Assembly (NCBI GenBank): GCA_938045585.1
Contig: CALIAU010000014.1
Location: forward strand, 1 to 64,000
Length of the DNA: 64,000 bases
Source: an uncultured Saprospiraceae bacterium
Lineage (GTDB): Bacteria; Bacteroidota; Bacteroidia; Chitinophagales; Saprospiraceae
Direction of reading: 5' to 3'
Under the pieces are notes generated by a model. That model searched no databases and was not told the DNA's origin. It worked only from the letters and a program-made list of their open reading frames with translations. Shown in pieces: positions 16,286-59,009 of the stretch. The position numbers were made by a program, and so were the translations under genes. Numbering within the stretch: position 1 is the first letter of the stretch; every line of letters begins with the position of its first letter.

Positions 16286-16318
16286 TGGATTCCGTAGGTG
16301 CAAGCTCGAATAACGAGG
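16286..16318. repeat. Dispersed GGATTCGTAGGTGCA module, degenerate copy
   Basis: ATGGATTCCGTAGGTGCA, then GCTCGAATAACGAGG. A better-preserved copy at 22480-22513 forms a perfect 9-bp hairpin; here the hairpin partner is partly lost. Both copies are near a 26-nt palindrome. Confidence 0.6.
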
Positions 16319-16343
16319 ATGAAGGATTAAAGTTATATCTCCT

Positions 16344-16460
16344 CGTAGTTTGGAAACTACGGGAGGGTCGAAAACAAGGATATGTGCACGTAGTTTGGAA
16401 ACTACGAGGAACGGCGGAGGGTCGAAAACAAGAATATGTACACGTAGTTTGGAAACTACG
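16344..16460. repeat. Three-copy hairpin array (18-nt palindrome CGTAGTTTGGAAACTACG)
   Basis: The identical palindrome occurs at 16344-16361, 16389-16406 and 16443-16460. The arms are CGTAGTTT and AAACTACG around GG. The spacers are also copies of each other: GGAGGGTCGAAAACAAG-ATATGT(G/A)CA, 27 nt, with a 9-nt addition in the second. This is a tandem duplication with a structured core and lies between convergent terminators. Because the spacers repeat, it is not a CRISPR array. Confidence 0.85.
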
Positions 16461-16483
16461 AGGACCGATTCATGGGAAATAGG

Positions 16484-16538: not shown

Positions 16539-17444
16539 CTAACCATTCTCTAAAGCAGCCGCTCCACCTACGATTTCTAGGATCTCGTTGGTAATTGATT
16601 CTTGTCTTGCTTTATTGTAGTTAATCTTAAGTTCTTTCAGTAGGTCTTTTGCATTCTCTGTTGCAGAATCCATTGCTGACATTCTTGCTCCGTGTTCGGA
16701 AGCGTGGTTGTCAAGACAGTACTTGTGAAAACTTGTTTGTAGGATACTTGGAATAAGTTTTTCAAGAAGTTCTTCTTTACTTGGCTCAAAGATATAGTCC
16801 GCGTTTCTACTTTTTGTTTTTTCACCACCTGTTGGTGTTGGCAATTTCTCTACTGGTAAAAAACGTACACAGGTAGGATATTGTACAACTGGATTCTTAA
16901 ATCGACCATAGCATACATAGACCTCATCATACTCACCTAGGGTGAATTTGTCCATGAGTTCTTGCGAAACTTTAGCTACATTATCAAACGAGAGGTCATC
17001 AAACAAGGCTGTATGTTCTTTAATAAATGCAGATTCTGGAAATTCACGCTTCAGGGCGTCATAGCCTTTTTTACCTACCGTTATTATTTTACAATTCCCG
17101 CTGGCCATAAAATCAGCATAGTCTTCCGTAATCTTCTTTCTTGCGGCTTTAATGACATTTGAATTAAATGCACCACAGAGACCTCTATTTGAAGTGATCA
17201 CCACTACAGCAACATTTACTCTTTCTCGTTCTTGACCAAAAGAAGTAGATCCTCCTCCTTCAATGTTTGATAATATGTTTATCATCATTCTATTGAGGCG
17301 ATCAGCATACGGACGCATTTCAGTAATTGCCTGCTGTGCTTTTCTCAGCTTAGCAGCAGATACCATTTTCATTGCGCTTGTAATCTGTTGAGTAGATTTA
17401 ACAGATCCGATTCTTTCTCTTACTTCTTTTAATTTACCACTCAT
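16539..17444 (-). CDS. atpG: ATP synthase F1 subunit gamma
   Basis: The central rotor shaft of the F1Fo ATP synthase, 301 residues, within the usual range. The N-terminal coiled-coil (KEVRERIGSVKSTQQITSAM, then KMVSAAKLRKAQQ) and the family signature near the C-terminus (ARMSAMDSATENAKDLL, NKARQESITNEILEI) are both present. It is the last gene of the minus-strand operon, two bases after atpA, and is followed by a strong terminator. The beta and epsilon genes that follow gamma in many bacteria are absent here. Confidence 0.97.
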   Translation of the reverse strand: MSGKLKEVRERIGSVKSTQQITSAMKMVSAAKLRKAQQAITEMRPYADRLNRMMINILSNIEGGGSTSFGQERERVNVAVVVITSNRGLCGAFNSNVIKAARKKITEDYADFMASGNCKIITVGKKGYDALKREFPESAFIKEHTALFDDLSFDNVAKVSQELMDKFTLGEYDEVYVCYGRFKNPVVQYPTCVRFLPVEKLPTPTGGEKTKSRNADYIFEPSKEELLEKLIPSILQTSFHKYCLDNHASEHGARMSAMDSATENAKDLLKELKINYNKARQESITNEILEIVGGAAALENG

Positions 17445-17446
17445 TG

Positions 17447-19033
17447 TTACTTCTTATATCGGCTAACTAGTTCAGAGGCAAGTTTCTTCACTGTATCAAT
17501 TGCTTCTGGATCTAATTTTCCTTTTCTAAATGTATCCAATACTTCAGGATGTGCAGATTCCAATTGTGTCAAGAAGTCTGCTTCAAACTCTCTTACCTTA
17601 TTCACAGGAACATCTTTAAGAAGACCCTGTGTTCCTAAGTATATGATTGCCACTTGTTTCTCTACAGATACTGGTGAGTACTGTGGTTGTTTTAGTATTT
17701 CTACATTTCTCTTTCCTTTTTCAAGAACTGATAGTGTTGCTGCATCTAGGTCTGAACCAAACTTCGCAAATGCTTCCAGTTCTCTAAACTGTGCTTGGTC
17801 TAACTTAAGCGTACCAGATACTTTTTTCATGGACTTAATCTGTGCTGATCCCCCTACCCTTGATACGGAGATACCCACATTAATTGCTGGTCTGATACCT
17901 GCGTTAAATAGATTTGATTCCAAGAAAATCTGACCGTCTGTAATTGAAATTACGTTTGTCGGAATATATGCTGATACATCACCTGCCTGCGTTTCAATAA
18001 TAGGAAGAGCTGTTAATGATCCACCTCCTTTTACGATACCTGCTTTCTTCAATGAATCAGGCAGGTCGTTCATATTTTGTGCAATCTCATCATCATTGAT
18101 CACTTTTGCTGCACGCTCTAACAATCTACTATGTAGATAAAATACATCACCTGGGTACGCCTCTCTACCTGGAGGTCTTCTCAATAGAAGAGATACCTCT
18201 CTATATGCTACTGCCTGCTTAGACAAATCATCATAGATAATCAATGCAGGTCTTCCTGTGTCTCTAAAAAACTCTCCGATTGCTGCTCCAGCAAAGGGTG
18301 CATAAAACTGAAGAGGTGCAGGGTCTGATGCTGAAGCTGAAACGATTACTGTGTAATCCATGGCTCCGTTATCTTCTAATACCTTAGCTACCTGTGCTAC
18401 TGTAGATGCCTTCTGCCCTGAGGCTACATAGATACAGTATACAGGCTCACCTCTGTCGTAAAATTCTTTTTGGTTAAGGATGGTATCGACTGCAATGGCG
18501 GTTTTACCCGTTTGTCTATCTCCAATGATCAGCTCTCTTTGTCCTCTACCAATTGGGATCATTGCGTCAATAGCTTTGATACCTGTTTGTAAAGGTTCAG
18601 TTACGGGCTGTCTGTAGATTACACCAGGTGCCTTTCTCTCAAGAGGCATCTCATATAAATCACCACCTATGGGTCCTTTTCCATCGATTGGCTTACCGAG
18701 TGGATTTACAACTCGACCGGTGAACTTATCACCCACATTAATCGATGCAATACGTCCAGTTCTTCTAACAGTAGAACCTTCTTTAATACCATCACTTGCT
18801 CCTAGGAGTACCACCCCTACGTTATCTTCTTCCAGGTTAAGTACAATTGCCTGTACCCCAGTTTCAAATTCAACAAGTTCTCCAGATTTTGCTTTCGTCA
18901 GTCCGTAAACACGCGCAATCCCATCTCCTACTTGGAGTACTGTTCCTACTTCTTCCAGTTCTGATTCTGTTTTGAATCCTGAAAGTTGTTGCTTAAGAAT
19001 TGCTGATATTTCATCGGGTTTTACACCAATCAT
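17447..19033 (-). CDS. atpA: ATP synthase F1 subunit alpha
   Basis: A non-catalytic nucleotide-binding subunit of the F1 hexamer, 528 residues. The P-loop GDRQTGKTA is at about residues 171-179, and the family signature [17 protein letters not shown] is near 365-380. The N-terminal beta-barrel and the C-terminal helical domain are complete. It lies between atpH and atpG with short gaps, as in most F-type operons. Confidence 0.98.
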
Positions 19034-19057: not shown

Positions 19058-19618
19058 TTAAAAGTCTTTTACGTATTCGTTCCCCACAAATTCTTTTCTA
19101 AGGTTTGCCAATTTGTGGGATACGCTGGCATCGTATAATTTATCTCCCACCTGAATAATAAATCCACCAATTATATCTGGATCTATCTCAGTTGTTATTT
19201 CTACCGATTCATCCGTTACATTACTTGCAAGTAATTTTGCCTTGATAGAATCAAGTTTTTCATTACTTAACTCAGTAGCAGTAATTAATGTTACGGTTGT
19301 TATTTTCTTGTGTGCTTTGTATTGTACTTCAAAGGCTTTTACGATTTCTGGAAGAAGATCTTCTCTTCCCTTTCGCAAGACGATATCTAAAAAGCTTTTG
19401 CTAAGTGGATCTAATTTACCTGTGAATAAGGCATCGAGAACCTTTTGTTTTCTATCCTTGCTTATGATTGGACTTTTCAGCATGAGCACTAAGTCTCTGC
19501 TTTCCATGCTTTCAGTGAGTCCCAACATGTCTGTGCGGATAGTCTCTACGTTCTGTCTTTCTAGAGAAAGATCCAGTAGCGATTTAGCATAGGTGGATGC
19601 AATTCTGTGTATTGACAT
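19058..19618 (-). CDS. atpH: ATP synthase F1 subunit delta (OSCP)
   Basis: The 186-residue peripheral-stalk subunit that joins F1 to the b subunits. It starts with IASTYAKSLLDLSLE, has the conserved LDPLSKSFLDIVLRKGR-type helix in the middle, and ends with the glycine-rich family signature DPDIIGGFIIQVGDKLYDASV. It follows atpF by two bases. Length and order are normal. Confidence 0.95.
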   Translation of the reverse strand: MSIHRIASTYAKSLLDLSLERQNVETIRTDMLGLTESMESRDLVLMLKSPIISKDRKQKVLDALFTGKLDPLSKSFLDIVLRKGREDLLPEIVKAFEVQYKAHKKITTVTLITATELSNEKLDSIKAKLLASNVTDESVEITTEIDPDIIGGFIIQVGDKLYDASVSHKLANLRKEFVGNEYVKDF

Positions 19619-19620
19619 TC

Positions 19621-20139
19621 CTAGTTAAGGTTAATTTCGTCCACTAATGTATTGACAAATCCTTCTTGTTCTGGATTGCCTTTTAATTCTTTCTTGAGTA
19701 CTTTTTCTGCAATATCTAATGCCATGATTCCTACTTTGTTTTTCACTTCAGTAAGTGCAGCATTTTTTTGATTCTCAATTTCAAGATTTGCGTCAGTCAT
19801 GATTTTCTGCGCTTCTGACTTTGCTTTTTCTTTGGCATCATTTACAATCTTTGCACCAGACTCTTTAGCTTCTCTGAGCATCTGTGCTCTTTCTTCTCTT
19901 GCCTCTACTAAGAGCTTTTCGTTTTCAGCCTTTAGATTAGACATTTCTTCTTTTGCTTTCTTCGCCTCATCAAGCGCACCTTGAATTGTTGTTTCTCTGT
20001 CTTTCAATGCACTTGCAATAGGTCCAAATGCCATCTTTCCTAGTATGTACCAGAAAAGAAGGAATATAACAGACGTCCAAAGAATAAGACCTAAATCAGG
20101 TTTTATTGGAGAAAAATCAAGTAATGTAATATATAACAT
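19621..20139 (-). CDS. atpF: ATP synthase Fo subunit b
   Basis: Peripheral-stalk membrane subunit. I choose the ATG at 20137-20139, giving 172 residues that begin MLYITLLDFSPIKPDLGLILW. The frame stays open upstream to 20205, but that extension is hydrophilic, lies in the atpE-atpF hairpin, and does not resemble b subunits. One membrane helix (about residues 12-35) is followed by a long charged coiled-coil rich in Ala, Glu and Lys, as expected for a right-handed b dimer. It sits between atpE and atpH. Confidence 0.93.
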   Translation of the reverse strand: MLYITLLDFSPIKPDLGLILWTSVIFLLFWYILGKMAFGPIASALKDRETTIQGALDEAKKAKEEMSNLKAENEKLLVEAREERAQMLREAKESGAKIVNDAKEKAKSEAQKIMTDANLEIENQKNAALTEVKNKVGIMALDIAEKVLKKELKGNPEQEGFVNTLVDEINLN

Positions 20140-20167
20140 ACCGTAAGGTTTTCTTTGCTTTTTAAAA

Positions 20168-20205
20168 TTGCAGAACAGTGAACCATCCGTCCTCCTGTTC
20201 TGCAA
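20168..20205 (-). promoter_or_regulatory. Hairpin between atpE and atpF
   Basis: A perfect 11-bp inverted repeat, TTGCAGAACAG (20168-20178) and CTGTTCTGCAA (20195-20205), with a 16-nt loop, lies just after the atpE stop codon. There is no T-run. Such a structure could stabilise the 3' end of the atpE message, whose product is needed in many copies, or partly attenuate downstream genes. The function is inferred from position only. Confidence 0.55.
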
Positions 20206-20217
20206 ATGATAATTTTA

Positions 20218-20439
<222 letters not shown>

Positions 20440-20466: not shown

Positions 20467-22002
20467 TTAATGATGGTGCTCCTCTGTAGCAGCGCCAATA
20501 TATGAGGCAGTCAATATTGTAAATACGAATGCCTGTATAAATGCTACCAATAACTCGATAGCCATCATAAACATAGTTAAGAGAGCTGAAGGAACAACCA
20601 TGCCCCATCCAGCAGCTGGATTCATACCGTTCTTACCGAATATGAAAATCAAGCCAACAAAAATTACGATTACCATGTGCCCTGCTGTCATGTTTCCAAA
20701 CAGACGTAGCATAAGGGTTAGTGGCTTTACAATAAACGCCCCCATCATCTCCACAGGAGTTACAATCACTTTCACCCATGCTGGTAATCCAGGCATGTTA
20801 AATATATGCTTCCAATAATCTTTGTTTCCGTTTTTAGTTGTCACAAGAAATGCAACGATTGCGAGAACTGCTGTTACAGATAAACTTCCTGTTACATTAG
20901 ATCCTCCAAAGAAAGGCACTTGACCAAATAAGTTAAGTCCCAGTATAAAAAAGAACAGGGCCATCAGGATAGGAATAAATTCTTCCCAACGTTTCCCAAG
21001 GAATGGTTTTGCTACCTCATCTTGAATAAATACGAAGATAGGTTCTAAGAATCCTTGCACTCCTGTAGGAGCCATGCCTTTTCTAGTCTTGTATGCTCTT
21101 GCTACTTTTCTGAATAACCAGAATAAGAATAAACTGACAAGAAGCATACTTACTACATTCTTGGTTATAGAGAAATCTGTAAATGAGGTAATACCTCCTC
21201 CAAAGAGACCTCCATCCAAGGTACTTTTGCTATCTACTTTAAAGGACTGTCCTCCTTGGCACAAATAGAGTTGATCTTTTTTCTTGCCATTTTCTTGCAT
21301 CTCTTCTACCGCATATACACTATGGCTTCCATTTTTTAATTCAACCAATCCTTCTCTGTTGAAATTTCCTCTTACTCTTCTTGCAGAACCTTCATATAGT
21401 ACATAGCCATTGTATGCCATGCTACCATTTCCATGGTAATCTGGTTTGAATTTTCCTGAGGAGAACATATCAAATTTAGATCCTCCTTCTGCACTCTTAT
21501 GTGTATATAAAATACAAGGTAGGGGAATCTGTATAGGACCAATACTGTATACATTCTGATCACTAATGTGATGGAAGGCTACAGCACCTGGATTAAATTC
21601 TGCTGAATGATCATGCACCATATGTCCACAAGCGTTCTGGTGTGCATGTCCTCCGTGGCTATCATCTCCATGTGCATGTCCATCGTGACCGCCTTTTGCA
21701 TGATTGTGTCCGGAATGATCACCATGCGCATGATTGTGCCCAGAATGATCACCGTGTGCATGGTTATGTCCGGAATGATTTCCTTTTGCATGATTATGGC
21801 CAGAATGGTCACCTTTTGCATGATTGTGTCCAGAGTGATCACCTTTTGCATGGTTATGCCCAGAATGATCGCCATGATCGTGGTTATGCCCTTGGTGATT
21901 TTGCTGCGTAGATTGAGTAGATGTGCGTTTTGTACTGTGCTGTTGGGCACTGATAAAACACGCCATGGATACAAAAAGGAAAATGAAACCTAGTTTACGC
22001 AT
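20467..22002 (-). CDS. atpB: ATP synthase Fo subunit a with a signal peptide and His-rich periplasmic extension
   Basis: The proton-channel subunit, here 511 residues against about 250-400 in relatives. Residues 1-20 are a signal peptide (FVSMACFISAQ). Residues 36-132 are extremely His-rich: seven units of ten residues, GHNHAKGDHS or close variants, at 38-107, then more His up to VHDHS. Residues about 135-290 are a soluble extracytoplasmic region. The C-terminal part is the normal subunit with the stator arginine in LMLRLFGNMTAGH (near residue 432). It ends in EEHHH. It is the first gene of the operon, and a -7 box lies about 25 bp upstream. The repeat suggests metal or proton binding on the periplasmic side. 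Confidence 0.93.
   Translation of the reverse strand: MRKLGFIFLFVSMACFISAQQHSTKRTSTQSTQQNHQGHNHDHGDHSGHNHAKGDHSGHNHAKGDHSGHNHAKGNHSGHNHAHGDHSGHNHAHGDHSGHNHAKGGHDGHAHGDDSHGGHAHQNACGHMVHDHSAEFNPGAVAFHHISDQNVYSIGPIQIPLPCILYTHKSAEGGSKFDMFSSGKFKPDYHGNGSMAYNGYVLYEGSARRVRGNFNREGLVELKNGSHSVYAVEEMQENGKKKDQLYLCQGGQSFKVDSKSTLDGGLFGGGITSFTDFSITKNVVSMLLVSLFLFWLFRKVARAYKTRKGMAPTGVQGFLEPIFVFIQDEVAKPFLGKRWEEFIPILMALFFFILGLNLFGQVPFFGGSNVTGSLSVTAVLAIVAFLVTTKNGNKDYWKHIFNMPGLPAWVKVIVTPVEMMGAFIVKPLTLMLRLFGNMTAGHMVIVIFVGLIFIFGKNGMNPAAGWGMVVPSALLTMFMMAIELLVAFIQAFVFTILTASYIGAATEEHHH
21682..21891 (-). repeat. Seven tandem 30-bp repeats coding the His-rich segment of AtpB
   Basis: The repeat period is 30 bp and each unit codes for ten residues of the type GHNH-A-(K/H)-G-D-H-S. 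Units differ at single codons (AAG or CAT/CAC at the variable place, GAT or AAT before HS). The high identity suggests recent expansion or contraction by slippage, so copy number may vary between strains. Confidence 0.9.
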
Positions 22003-22229: not shown

Positions 22230-22470
22230 TTACCAAATATTGAGGAACGGAGGATGAGGACGAGCGGACTAACGGACGAACGAACGGAGCGGACGAAACG
22301 GACTCAACGGACTCAACGGACGAAAGAGAGCGGCGTGTTCGGAGGAACGGATGGAGCGGACGGATGGACCAACGGAGGAACGGACGGTACGGACCAACGG
22401 ACGGAAGAGAGCTACGTGTTCGGACAGGAAAGACGGAGCAGACGGAAGAGAGCGGCATGTTCGGACGAAC
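22230..22470. repeat. ACGGA-rich irregular repeat tract
   Basis: About 240 bp built from ACGGAC, ACGGAG and ACGAA words, GC-rich and purine-rich on the plus strand, unlike the neighbourhood. Inside it a 23-nt unit recurs three times with the core AAGAGAGCGGC-TGTTCGGA: 22321-22343, 22402-22424 and 22443-22465. A 9-nt unit ACGGACTCA is also doubled near 22300-22317. No coding potential is credible: frames on both strands are low-complexity. Confidence 0.75.
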
Positions 22471-22479
22471 GTGTAGATA

Positions 22480-58418: not shown

Positions 58419-58493
58419 TGAGACTGGAGGGATTCGAACCCACGACCTCTGCCCTGTCAAGGCAGCGCTCTAAACCAACTGAGCTACAGTCTC
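58419..58493 (-). tRNA. tRNA-Val (anticodon GAC)
   Basis: On the minus strand the cloverleaf is complete: acceptor GAGACTG/CAGTCTC, D-stem GCTC/GAGC, anticodon stem CTGCC/GGCAG with loop TTGACAG (anticodon GAC at 58454-58456), T-arm GTGGG-TTCGAAT-CCCTC. The T-stem has one T-T mismatch. CCA is not encoded. A tandem array of its own 5' half lies immediately upstream. Confidence 0.93.
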
Positions 58494-58541
58494 TGAAAAA
58501 TGTAATTTAACCAATGTGAGAATTCTTCTATTCCCTGTAAA

Positions 58542-58616
58542 AGAGCGATGCCTTGCATCCCTTCCGAAACTGATGTTTCGGTTCCTTCTTTTGCGATTGA
58601 CATTTAGTCAATCACA
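58542..58616 (-). repeat. Covarying double-hairpin element E1
   Basis: On the minus strand: TGTGATTGAC-TAAAT-GTCAATCGCA, then GGAACCG, stem AAAC-ATCA-GTTT, CGG, GGGATG, ATCGCTCT. Compared with E0 four bases in each arm of hairpin 2 have changed and still pair. A third copy, E2, lies at about 58727-58801 with loop ATAA. Confidence 0.7.
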
Positions 58617-58653
58617 TCCTGCGGACCATGCAGTCAGATCTAAACCAACTGAG

Positions 58654-58672
58654 CCTGTCTGCCTTAGGCAGG
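58654..58672. repeat. 19-nt palindrome inserted in a tRNA-Val 5' half
   Basis: CCTGTCTGCCTTAGGCAGG, a hairpin with CTGCC/GGCAG stem, sits between TAG and CTCAG of the D-arm sequence. The second array copy at 58839-58857 has loop TCA in place of TTA. It resembles the arms of the 26-nt palindromes elsewhere. Confidence 0.75.
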
Positions 58673-59009
58673 CTACAGTCTCTGAAAAATGTAATTTAAC
58701 CAATGTGAGAATTCTTCTATTCCCTGTAAAAGAGCGATGCCTTGCATCCCTTCCGAAACTTATGTTTCGGTTCCTTCTTTTGCGATTGACATTTAGTCAA
58801 TCACATCCTGCAGAACATTCAGATCTAAATCAACTTAGCCTGTCTGCCTCAGGCAGGCTACAGTCTCTGAAAAATATAATTTATCCTATATGAGAATTCG
58901 TTAATCCCCGAATAAAGGAGCGCTGTAAAGAAACTAAGTTTTATTGAGACTTAAAAAGAAGTAAGGATTAATTGAAACTATGCAATGATTATATTATGTT
59001 TCAATCCTC

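Follow-up and report, generated by a model that had tools for sequence, protein, structure and literature searches.

A histidine-rich N-terminal arm on the ATP synthase subunit a of a Saprospiraceae bacterium

The window, i.e., the whole 64,000-nucleotide stretch of an uncultured Saprospiraceae genome analysed here, carries on its minus strand an open reading frame of 511 aa that the first-pass annotation had assigned to ATP synthase subunit a. Family and structure searches bear this out: PF00119 matches residues 284-502 with 176.1 bits against a cut-off of 33.9, TIGR01131 matches with 118.1 bits against a cut-off of 102.6, and the predicted model retrieves many subunit a structures with Foldseek (best E 7.1e-9). 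The gene adjoins atpE and atpF, which are followed by the delta, alpha and gamma reading frames, and the whole is a standard ATP synthase operon. The true start of atpF probably lies further in than the listed TTG.

20467..22002, minus strand: atpB, F1Fo ATP synthase subunit a, 511 aa plus stop (open reading frame, PF00119, Foldseek)
20497..21153, minus strand: membrane domain ATP-synt_A, residues 284-502 (PF00119)
20704..20706, minus strand: Arg433, invariant in 47 aligned sequences
20677..20679, minus strand: His442, invariant in 47 aligned sequences
20554..20556, minus strand: Glu483, invariant in 47 aligned sequences
20470..20484, minus strand: C-terminal EEHHH tail (tail His count in 228 AtpB sequences)
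20218..20424, minus strand: atpE (subunit c), ALVEGAAL around the ion-binding Glu (family search)
19621..20205, minus strand: atpF (subunit b), listed start TTG (family search)
19058..19618, minus strand: atpH (delta), assigned from its place in the operon and its sequence only
17447..19033, minus strand: atpA (alpha), assigned from its place in the operon and its sequence only
16539..17444, minus strand: atpG (gamma), assigned from its place in the operon and its sequence only

We take Arg433, by its motif, to be the equivalent of E. coli aArg210, His442 that of the inlet residue aGlu219 and Glu483 that of aHis245, with His442 and Glu483 as the swapped pair; His442 presumably also corresponds to the position of the proposed Zn site in Polytomella. 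Since all three residues are invariant in the 47 sequences, the proton path looks normal. Na+-coupled ATP synthases have Ser or Thr after the c-ring Glu. The c subunit at this locus has EG at the ion-site Glu, and in all 174 loci read (of 228) the next residue is Gly, Ala or Val, which we read as the H+ type; with no ES or ET among these 174, Na+ coupling was rejected. Membership of the N-ATPase (altF1) subunit a family was likewise rejected (TIGR03306, 57 bits against a cut-off of 302.1). AtpB is thus apparently an ordinary, H+-coupled F-type subunit a. Promoter-like sites upstream of atpB numbered 2 against 0.8 expected, which is near chance. Three further repeats were seen in the window: an intergenic 52-bp unit in three copies at 16317-16467, each containing GTAGTTTGGAAACTAC; degenerate repeats rich in CGGACGAA-like units at 22242-22471, between atpB and the next long gene; and a 189-bp direct repeat in 2.2 copies at 58483-58899.

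With other F-type subunit a proteins (PF00119, TIGR01131) the protein shares the membrane domain, the invariant Arg/His/Glu, the gene neighbours and the fold, but it adds, ahead of the first membrane helix, a signal-peptide-like start, a His-rich arm of 114 residues and a folded periplasmic domain. It is a new variation on a known enzyme, and no description of such an arm was found in open-licence PMC papers. None of the three added parts has a Pfam match.

21946..22002, minus strand: signal peptide, residues 1-19 (MRKLGFIFLFVSMACFISA), with an inferred cleavage site (hydrophobic stretch, AQ junction of the alignment)
21604..21945, minus strand: His-rich arm, predicted disordered, residues 20-133 (composition, pLDDT)
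21694..21873, minus strand: six 10-residue units G[DN]HSGHNHA[KH], residues 44-103 (sequence count)
21628..21630, minus strand: Cys125, base of the arm, predicted disulfide partner (covariation)
21178..21603, minus strand: folded periplasmic domain, residues 134-275 (invariant columns, model)
21259..21261, minus strand: Cys248, on predicted strand 241-249 within the folded domain, putative disulfide partner (covariation, model)

In the alignment a consensus AQ junction lies behind the signal-peptide-like segment of AtpB. Among the 122 residues of the stretch 20-141 are 34 His, 11 Asp+Glu and 6 Lys+Arg. A signal-peptide-like start followed by a His-rich segment, as seen at first reading, is thus confirmed. 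In the full-length model the pLDDT of residues 20-133 is mostly below 50, and the arm is therefore predicted to be disordered; that model (pTM 0.63) gave no usable placement of the arm. From the signal-peptide-like start and the known topology of subunit a, the arm is expected in the periplasm, and we infer that it lies near the proton inlet half-channel.

GHNH occurs seven times, at residues 38, 48, 58, 68, 78, 88 and 98. Seven 10-residue units had been described; the seven GHNH are there, but the clean units number six, and the GHNH at residue 38 sits outside them in a different context. At the DNA level Tandem Repeats Finder reports a 30-bp tandem array at 21692-21891. Its units were first thought nearly identical, which does not hold: the six differ from each other with pairwise identities of 73-93% (mean 82%), while the peptide identity averages 91%. 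The variable columns fall at codon positions 1, 2 and 3 in the numbers 2, 0 and 9, and the dN/dS between units is about 0.035, a rough value from 15 non-independent pairs of 10 codons each. As the differences are mostly synonymous, the protein repeat looks kept by selection, and fresh DNA slippage as its sole cause was rejected on the same ground. Such a low dN/dS also speaks against a rival reading that we consider improbable, in which the exported linker tolerates a weakly selected low-complexity expansion with no role in the enzyme, His-rich strings being a common product of repeat growth in Saprospiraceae. The variation of copy number between close species is in its favour: the same-genus genome G001 has five GHNH (L002), and another relative (G141, L108) has five GHNH and one GHTH.

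AtpB N-termini across Bacteroidota, whose alignment the first-pass annotation had proposed, were compared in 228 sequences; repeat number differs between species. The loci were 146 from Saprospiraceae, 26 from elsewhere in the order, 27 from elsewhere in the class and 29 from elsewhere in the phylum. In the family, 148 of 150 genomes were matched and 146 loci taken, the weak matches G094 and G149 being left out; of 145 non-family genomes, 61 were newly taken (27 best-scoring rows and 34 hand-picked for spread) in addition to G055, so that the non-family sample is not random. The tree and the segment counts leave out L016 (masked stretch) as well as L217, L225 and L258, whose N-terminus is cut or masked. 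With a threshold of at least 8 His in the most His-dense 40-residue stretch ahead of the HHI motif, a His-rich arm is present in 67/146 Saprospiraceae versus 3/82 other Bacteroidota (order 2/26, class 1/27, phylum 0/29); with the folded domain counted too, 77/146 versus 4/82 are His-rich. His makes up 19.7% of the N-segments in the family, 7.6% in the order, 5.2% in the class and 4.0% in the phylum, and the family segments contain 21.8% Asp+Glu and 3.1% Lys+Arg. The growth of the arm is mainly His: segment length and His fraction are correlated (rho 0.75, relatedness uncorrected), and 57 of the 62 segments of at least 45 residues reach at least 12% His. A simple hydrophobicity rule detects a signal-peptide-like segment in 141/143 family members, 26/26 of the order, 26/26 of the class and 22/29 of the phylum. 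The earlier view that subunit a normally lacks such a domain is thus correct only in part, because the signal-peptide-like start is widespread, while the His expansion is for the most part specific to Saprospiraceae.

Within the family the trait is labile, the AtpB tree of 143 sequences requiring a minimum of 33 changes between arms that are His-rich and arms that are not, and dispensable, given that 67/143 members are His-rich in neither the arm nor the domain (threshold 8). Both numbers fit a low-complexity expansion, and the latter also counts against a functional antenna of the kind discussed below. What recurs among relatives is the His content, not the sequence, copy number or position. 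Locus GC has no link with the His content of the arm, so that a GC-driven origin was rejected, and this lack of correlation is a further point against mere low complexity. Overall, the arm looks like a real family-level trait under selection.

Another, much shorter His-rich element lies at the opposite end of the protein, the C-terminal end of subunit a being on the cytoplasmic side by known topology. At least two His occur in the last 8 residues of 199/228 AtpB (family 134/146, order 20/26, class 24/27, phylum 21/29), and a short His-rich tail (EEHHH and similar) is common throughout Bacteroidota.

The folded domain behind the arm begins near a conserved AFHHISDxN motif and ends before DFSITKN. 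Modelled alone, residues 120-275 give a mostly beta structure (pLDDT 80.6, pTM 0.76). Residues 21-275 matched no PDB sequence, and a Foldseek search of the periplasmic domain listed no PDB structure with E up to 0.001, which does not show an absence of relatives; VIA-align returned one chain (Z 2.1). We scored insertions of at least 10 residues in rarely filled columns of this domain in the 143 family sequences. Sixteen were found, 15 of which, in 12 genomes, contain 15-46% His, while the sixteenth (L233, 10 residues) has zero His; such a bias counts against mere low-complexity growth. The His-rich inserts occupy more than one loop. Their carriers, a set assembled after inspection, are 13 genomes (12 from the column filter and L230 added by eye), which form about seven tree groups by eye with a minimum of 8 changes, and all 13 are among the 26/143 with at most 2 His per 40 residues in the arm. 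For the nine strict cases (at least 9 His per 40 in the domain; L180, with a His-rich arm and no long insertion, excluded) the association of domain insert and His-poor arm has a Fisher p of 5.9e-8, with relatedness ignored. Tree-aware comparison of domain insertion with His-poor arm gave p 0.25 (4 starred pairs, 2.6 same and 0.0 other, 2-His cut-off) and was no better at cut-offs of 3, 5 and 7, and that of His-rich arm with His-rich domain was not significant (16 starred pairs; 0.1 same, 1.0 other, 14.9 none); in both comparisons the informative pairs were too few. The pattern is suggestive of a relocation of the His-rich string within the periplasmic domain when the arm is His-poor. It is conceivable, though on the doubtful side, that the ATP synthases of the family have acquired a proton antenna that can move, selection acting on the number of imidazoles and carboxylates near the periplasmic inlet and not on their sequence or place; after loss of the N-terminal His arm, a His-rich string would then arise in another loop of the same domain. 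If so, imidazole clusters would flank the proton path on either membrane side, the C-terminal His tail being the cytoplasmic one.

The base of the arm contains a linker Cys that varies together with a late Cys of the folded domain: 86 sequences have both, 50 have neither, and 136/143 are concordant. This holds in the tree-aware test (8 starred pairs, 6.6 same and 0.0 other; median p 0.016, range 0.008-0.125), and a C125-C248 disulfide probably ties the arm base to the folded domain. The covarying pair leaves a slim chance for a structural or assembly role, in which the disulfide-anchored arm would act as a spacer or as a docking element for another protein of the periplasm or envelope, its His residues being there for hydration or for binding that switches with pH. 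The linker Cys is usual in His-rich arms (61/66 versus 30/77 others), which agrees with such a role, but this association is not significant on the tree (p 0.25). Against this role, the arm is predicted to be disordered and offers no invariant column as a docking motif, the invariant columns beginning only at A142.

Similar His strings occur in other exported proteins, which would fit the low-complexity reading, but in the genome under study two motif scans, covering certain His spacings only, detected just three His-cluster proteins besides AtpB, which speaks against it. The first-pass annotation had tied a neutral expansion to His repeats in many unrelated exported proteins and no conservation in the orthologues; with three such proteins and 67/146 His-rich AtpB arms in the family, this is not the pattern observed. 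A general excess of HxHxH was not seen in the genome either (25 matches versus 24 for the reversed pattern). One of the three (L074:844-2232, G000:C20) is an FtsX-like permease with a GHDH-rich insertion before the FtsX domain, and genes like it, with His strings, are present in other family genomes. The second (L061:435-1688, G000:C4) is a TolB-like beta-propeller lipoprotein with a His-rich N-terminus. The third (L082:121-2016, G000:C27) is an NrfD-family membrane protein that carries a His-rich linker and, at its C-terminus, a helix-hairpin-helix domain; it may be the ActC subunit of alternative complex III. Open frames longer than 530 aa were found in only 4 of the 30 loci returned for the NrfD-like subunit, which gives little support to its sharing the His trait.

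These proteins lead to the metal-binding alternative, in which the GH[DN]H strings would be periplasmic ligands for Zn, Cu or Ni and would either shield the inlet from inhibitory metal or provide a metal buffer on an abundant complex. The motif GHxHxGHxH, which the AtpB described here does not match (its GHNH are ten apart), occurs in 39/150 family genomes. By eye, 30 of these loci comprised 8 FtsX-like permeases, 8 short lipoproteins, 4 AtpB and 10 others, two of the latter resembling metal-efflux adaptors. The 8 lipoproteins carry CPM[HYS]C...CP.C, which we take to be the motif of heavy-metal-binding domains. Such strings in apparently metal-handling exported proteins are probably metal-competent, which keeps metal binding as a rival and weighs against an antenna. 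The FtsX-like permease of the same genome also has a ZrgA match over its His-rich stretch, favourable to metal binding, of 33.6 bits against a cut-off of 185 and perhaps due to composition alone. No curated zinc-protein model was among the family matches of AtpB listed up to E 0.001, and inspection of the operon reading frames by eye noted no metal genes, the latter a point against a metal arm.

The His spacing statistics are equivocal. HxH is enriched in segments with at least 6 His (z 6.5) and HH is avoided in the His-rich arms, which favours metal binding. On the other hand, HxH is not over-represented in the 62 segments with 3-9 His (z -1.7) and shows no preference in the 15 domain insertions (z 0.4), which tells against metal binding and, being expected of a bulk property, favours the antenna. 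The one spacing preference of moderate-His segments, i,i+6 (z 5.5), and the HxH enrichment are unfavourable to the antenna, while the free variation of position and length fits no defined metal site. Taken together, metal binding by the arm is a serious possibility, though we would not bet on it, and ranks close behind the antenna. Both options raised by the first-pass annotation, proton buffering at the inlet and Zn/Ni/Cu binding, survive, and sequence alone cannot separate them.

Precedents exist on both sides. ZrgA and other zinc proteins have His-rich loops. PA4063 is a periplasmic zinc protein (PMC8561739); PA4063 and ZrgA resemble the arm as exported proteins with disordered His-rich segments but differ in serving zinc trafficking, with no proton motor. 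For the P. aeruginosa ATP synthase, PMC12796488 describes a likely Zn at the channel on the cytoplasmic side and cites a proposed Zn at Polytomella aHis248, equated with P. aeruginosa aGlu230; these reported or proposed sites in other subunit a proteins support metal binding. The P. aeruginosa metal cap likewise uses subunit a His and carboxylate ligands near the proton channel, although it is cytoplasmic, a single defined tetrahedral site, and has no repeat. The periplasmic funnel of E. coli Fo was proposed as a proton-gathering antenna in PMC9447477; it has carboxylates and imidazoles at the periplasmic inlet, but these are residues of subunits a and b and do not form a long disordered His array. 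The nearest precedent is the ice worm Mesenchytraeus solifugus, whose mitochondrial ATP6 also has a His-rich extension of subunit a that gave faster ATP synthesis once moved to the E. coli enzyme, as cited in PMC12796488. That extension is C-terminal, i.e., on the opposite membrane side from the N-terminal arm, which limits its value for the antenna; by position, its closer analogue is the short His tail at the C-terminus of Bacteroidota AtpB. The AtpB described here has no long His-rich C-terminal extension of the ice-worm type, only the short EEHHH tail.

The reading that we favour, tentatively and at somewhat less than even confidence, is that the arm is a proton-collecting or buffering antenna at the inlet. 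In this mechanism, growth of the exported N-terminal segment would have produced a long disordered arm in which His, Gly and acidic residues abound and Arg and Lys are scarce. The imidazole groups of the arm, with a pKa near 6-7, and its carboxylates could keep many exchangeable protons near the inlet half-channel and hand them on towards His442/Glu483, so that the local proton supply would stay high when bulk protons are scarce or pulsed. By composition, the His/acid cluster is present in the arm and in the family N-segments, on the presumed uptake side. In favour of the antenna are the place of the arm between the signal-peptide-like start and the first membrane helix, periplasmic by known topology, the His- and acid-rich composition with few basic residues, and the free variation of its position and length. 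The rise of the His fraction with segment length, the missing link with locus GC, the excess of synonymous differences in the repeat and the His-rich inserts elsewhere where the arm is His-poor point the same way, the last of these weakened by the tree-aware tests, in which the relocation pattern is not significant. The E. coli funnel proposal and the ice-worm transplant, as given in PMC9447477 and cited in PMC12796488, lend further support.

The antenna is also in line with the H+-type c subunit and with the N-ATPase-type paralogues of three family genomes (one partial), which have 0-2 His and no extension, although these may be armless merely through separate descent. A second, armless subunit a, an open frame of 252 aa (L403, G100:C173), lies in a genome listed at 5% contamination and may be foreign.

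If the arm binds metal, the proton-channel subunit of ATP synthase would have a metal-handling segment as part of its own chain. If it gathers protons, it would be a modular part that could be transferred from one ATP synthase to another, as is reported of the ice-worm extension cited in PMC12796488. With members that have the arm, members without it, members with the string in another loop, and arms with or without an apparent disulfide anchor, the Saprospiraceae provide a natural series for asking whether the proton supply of Fo needs an antenna.
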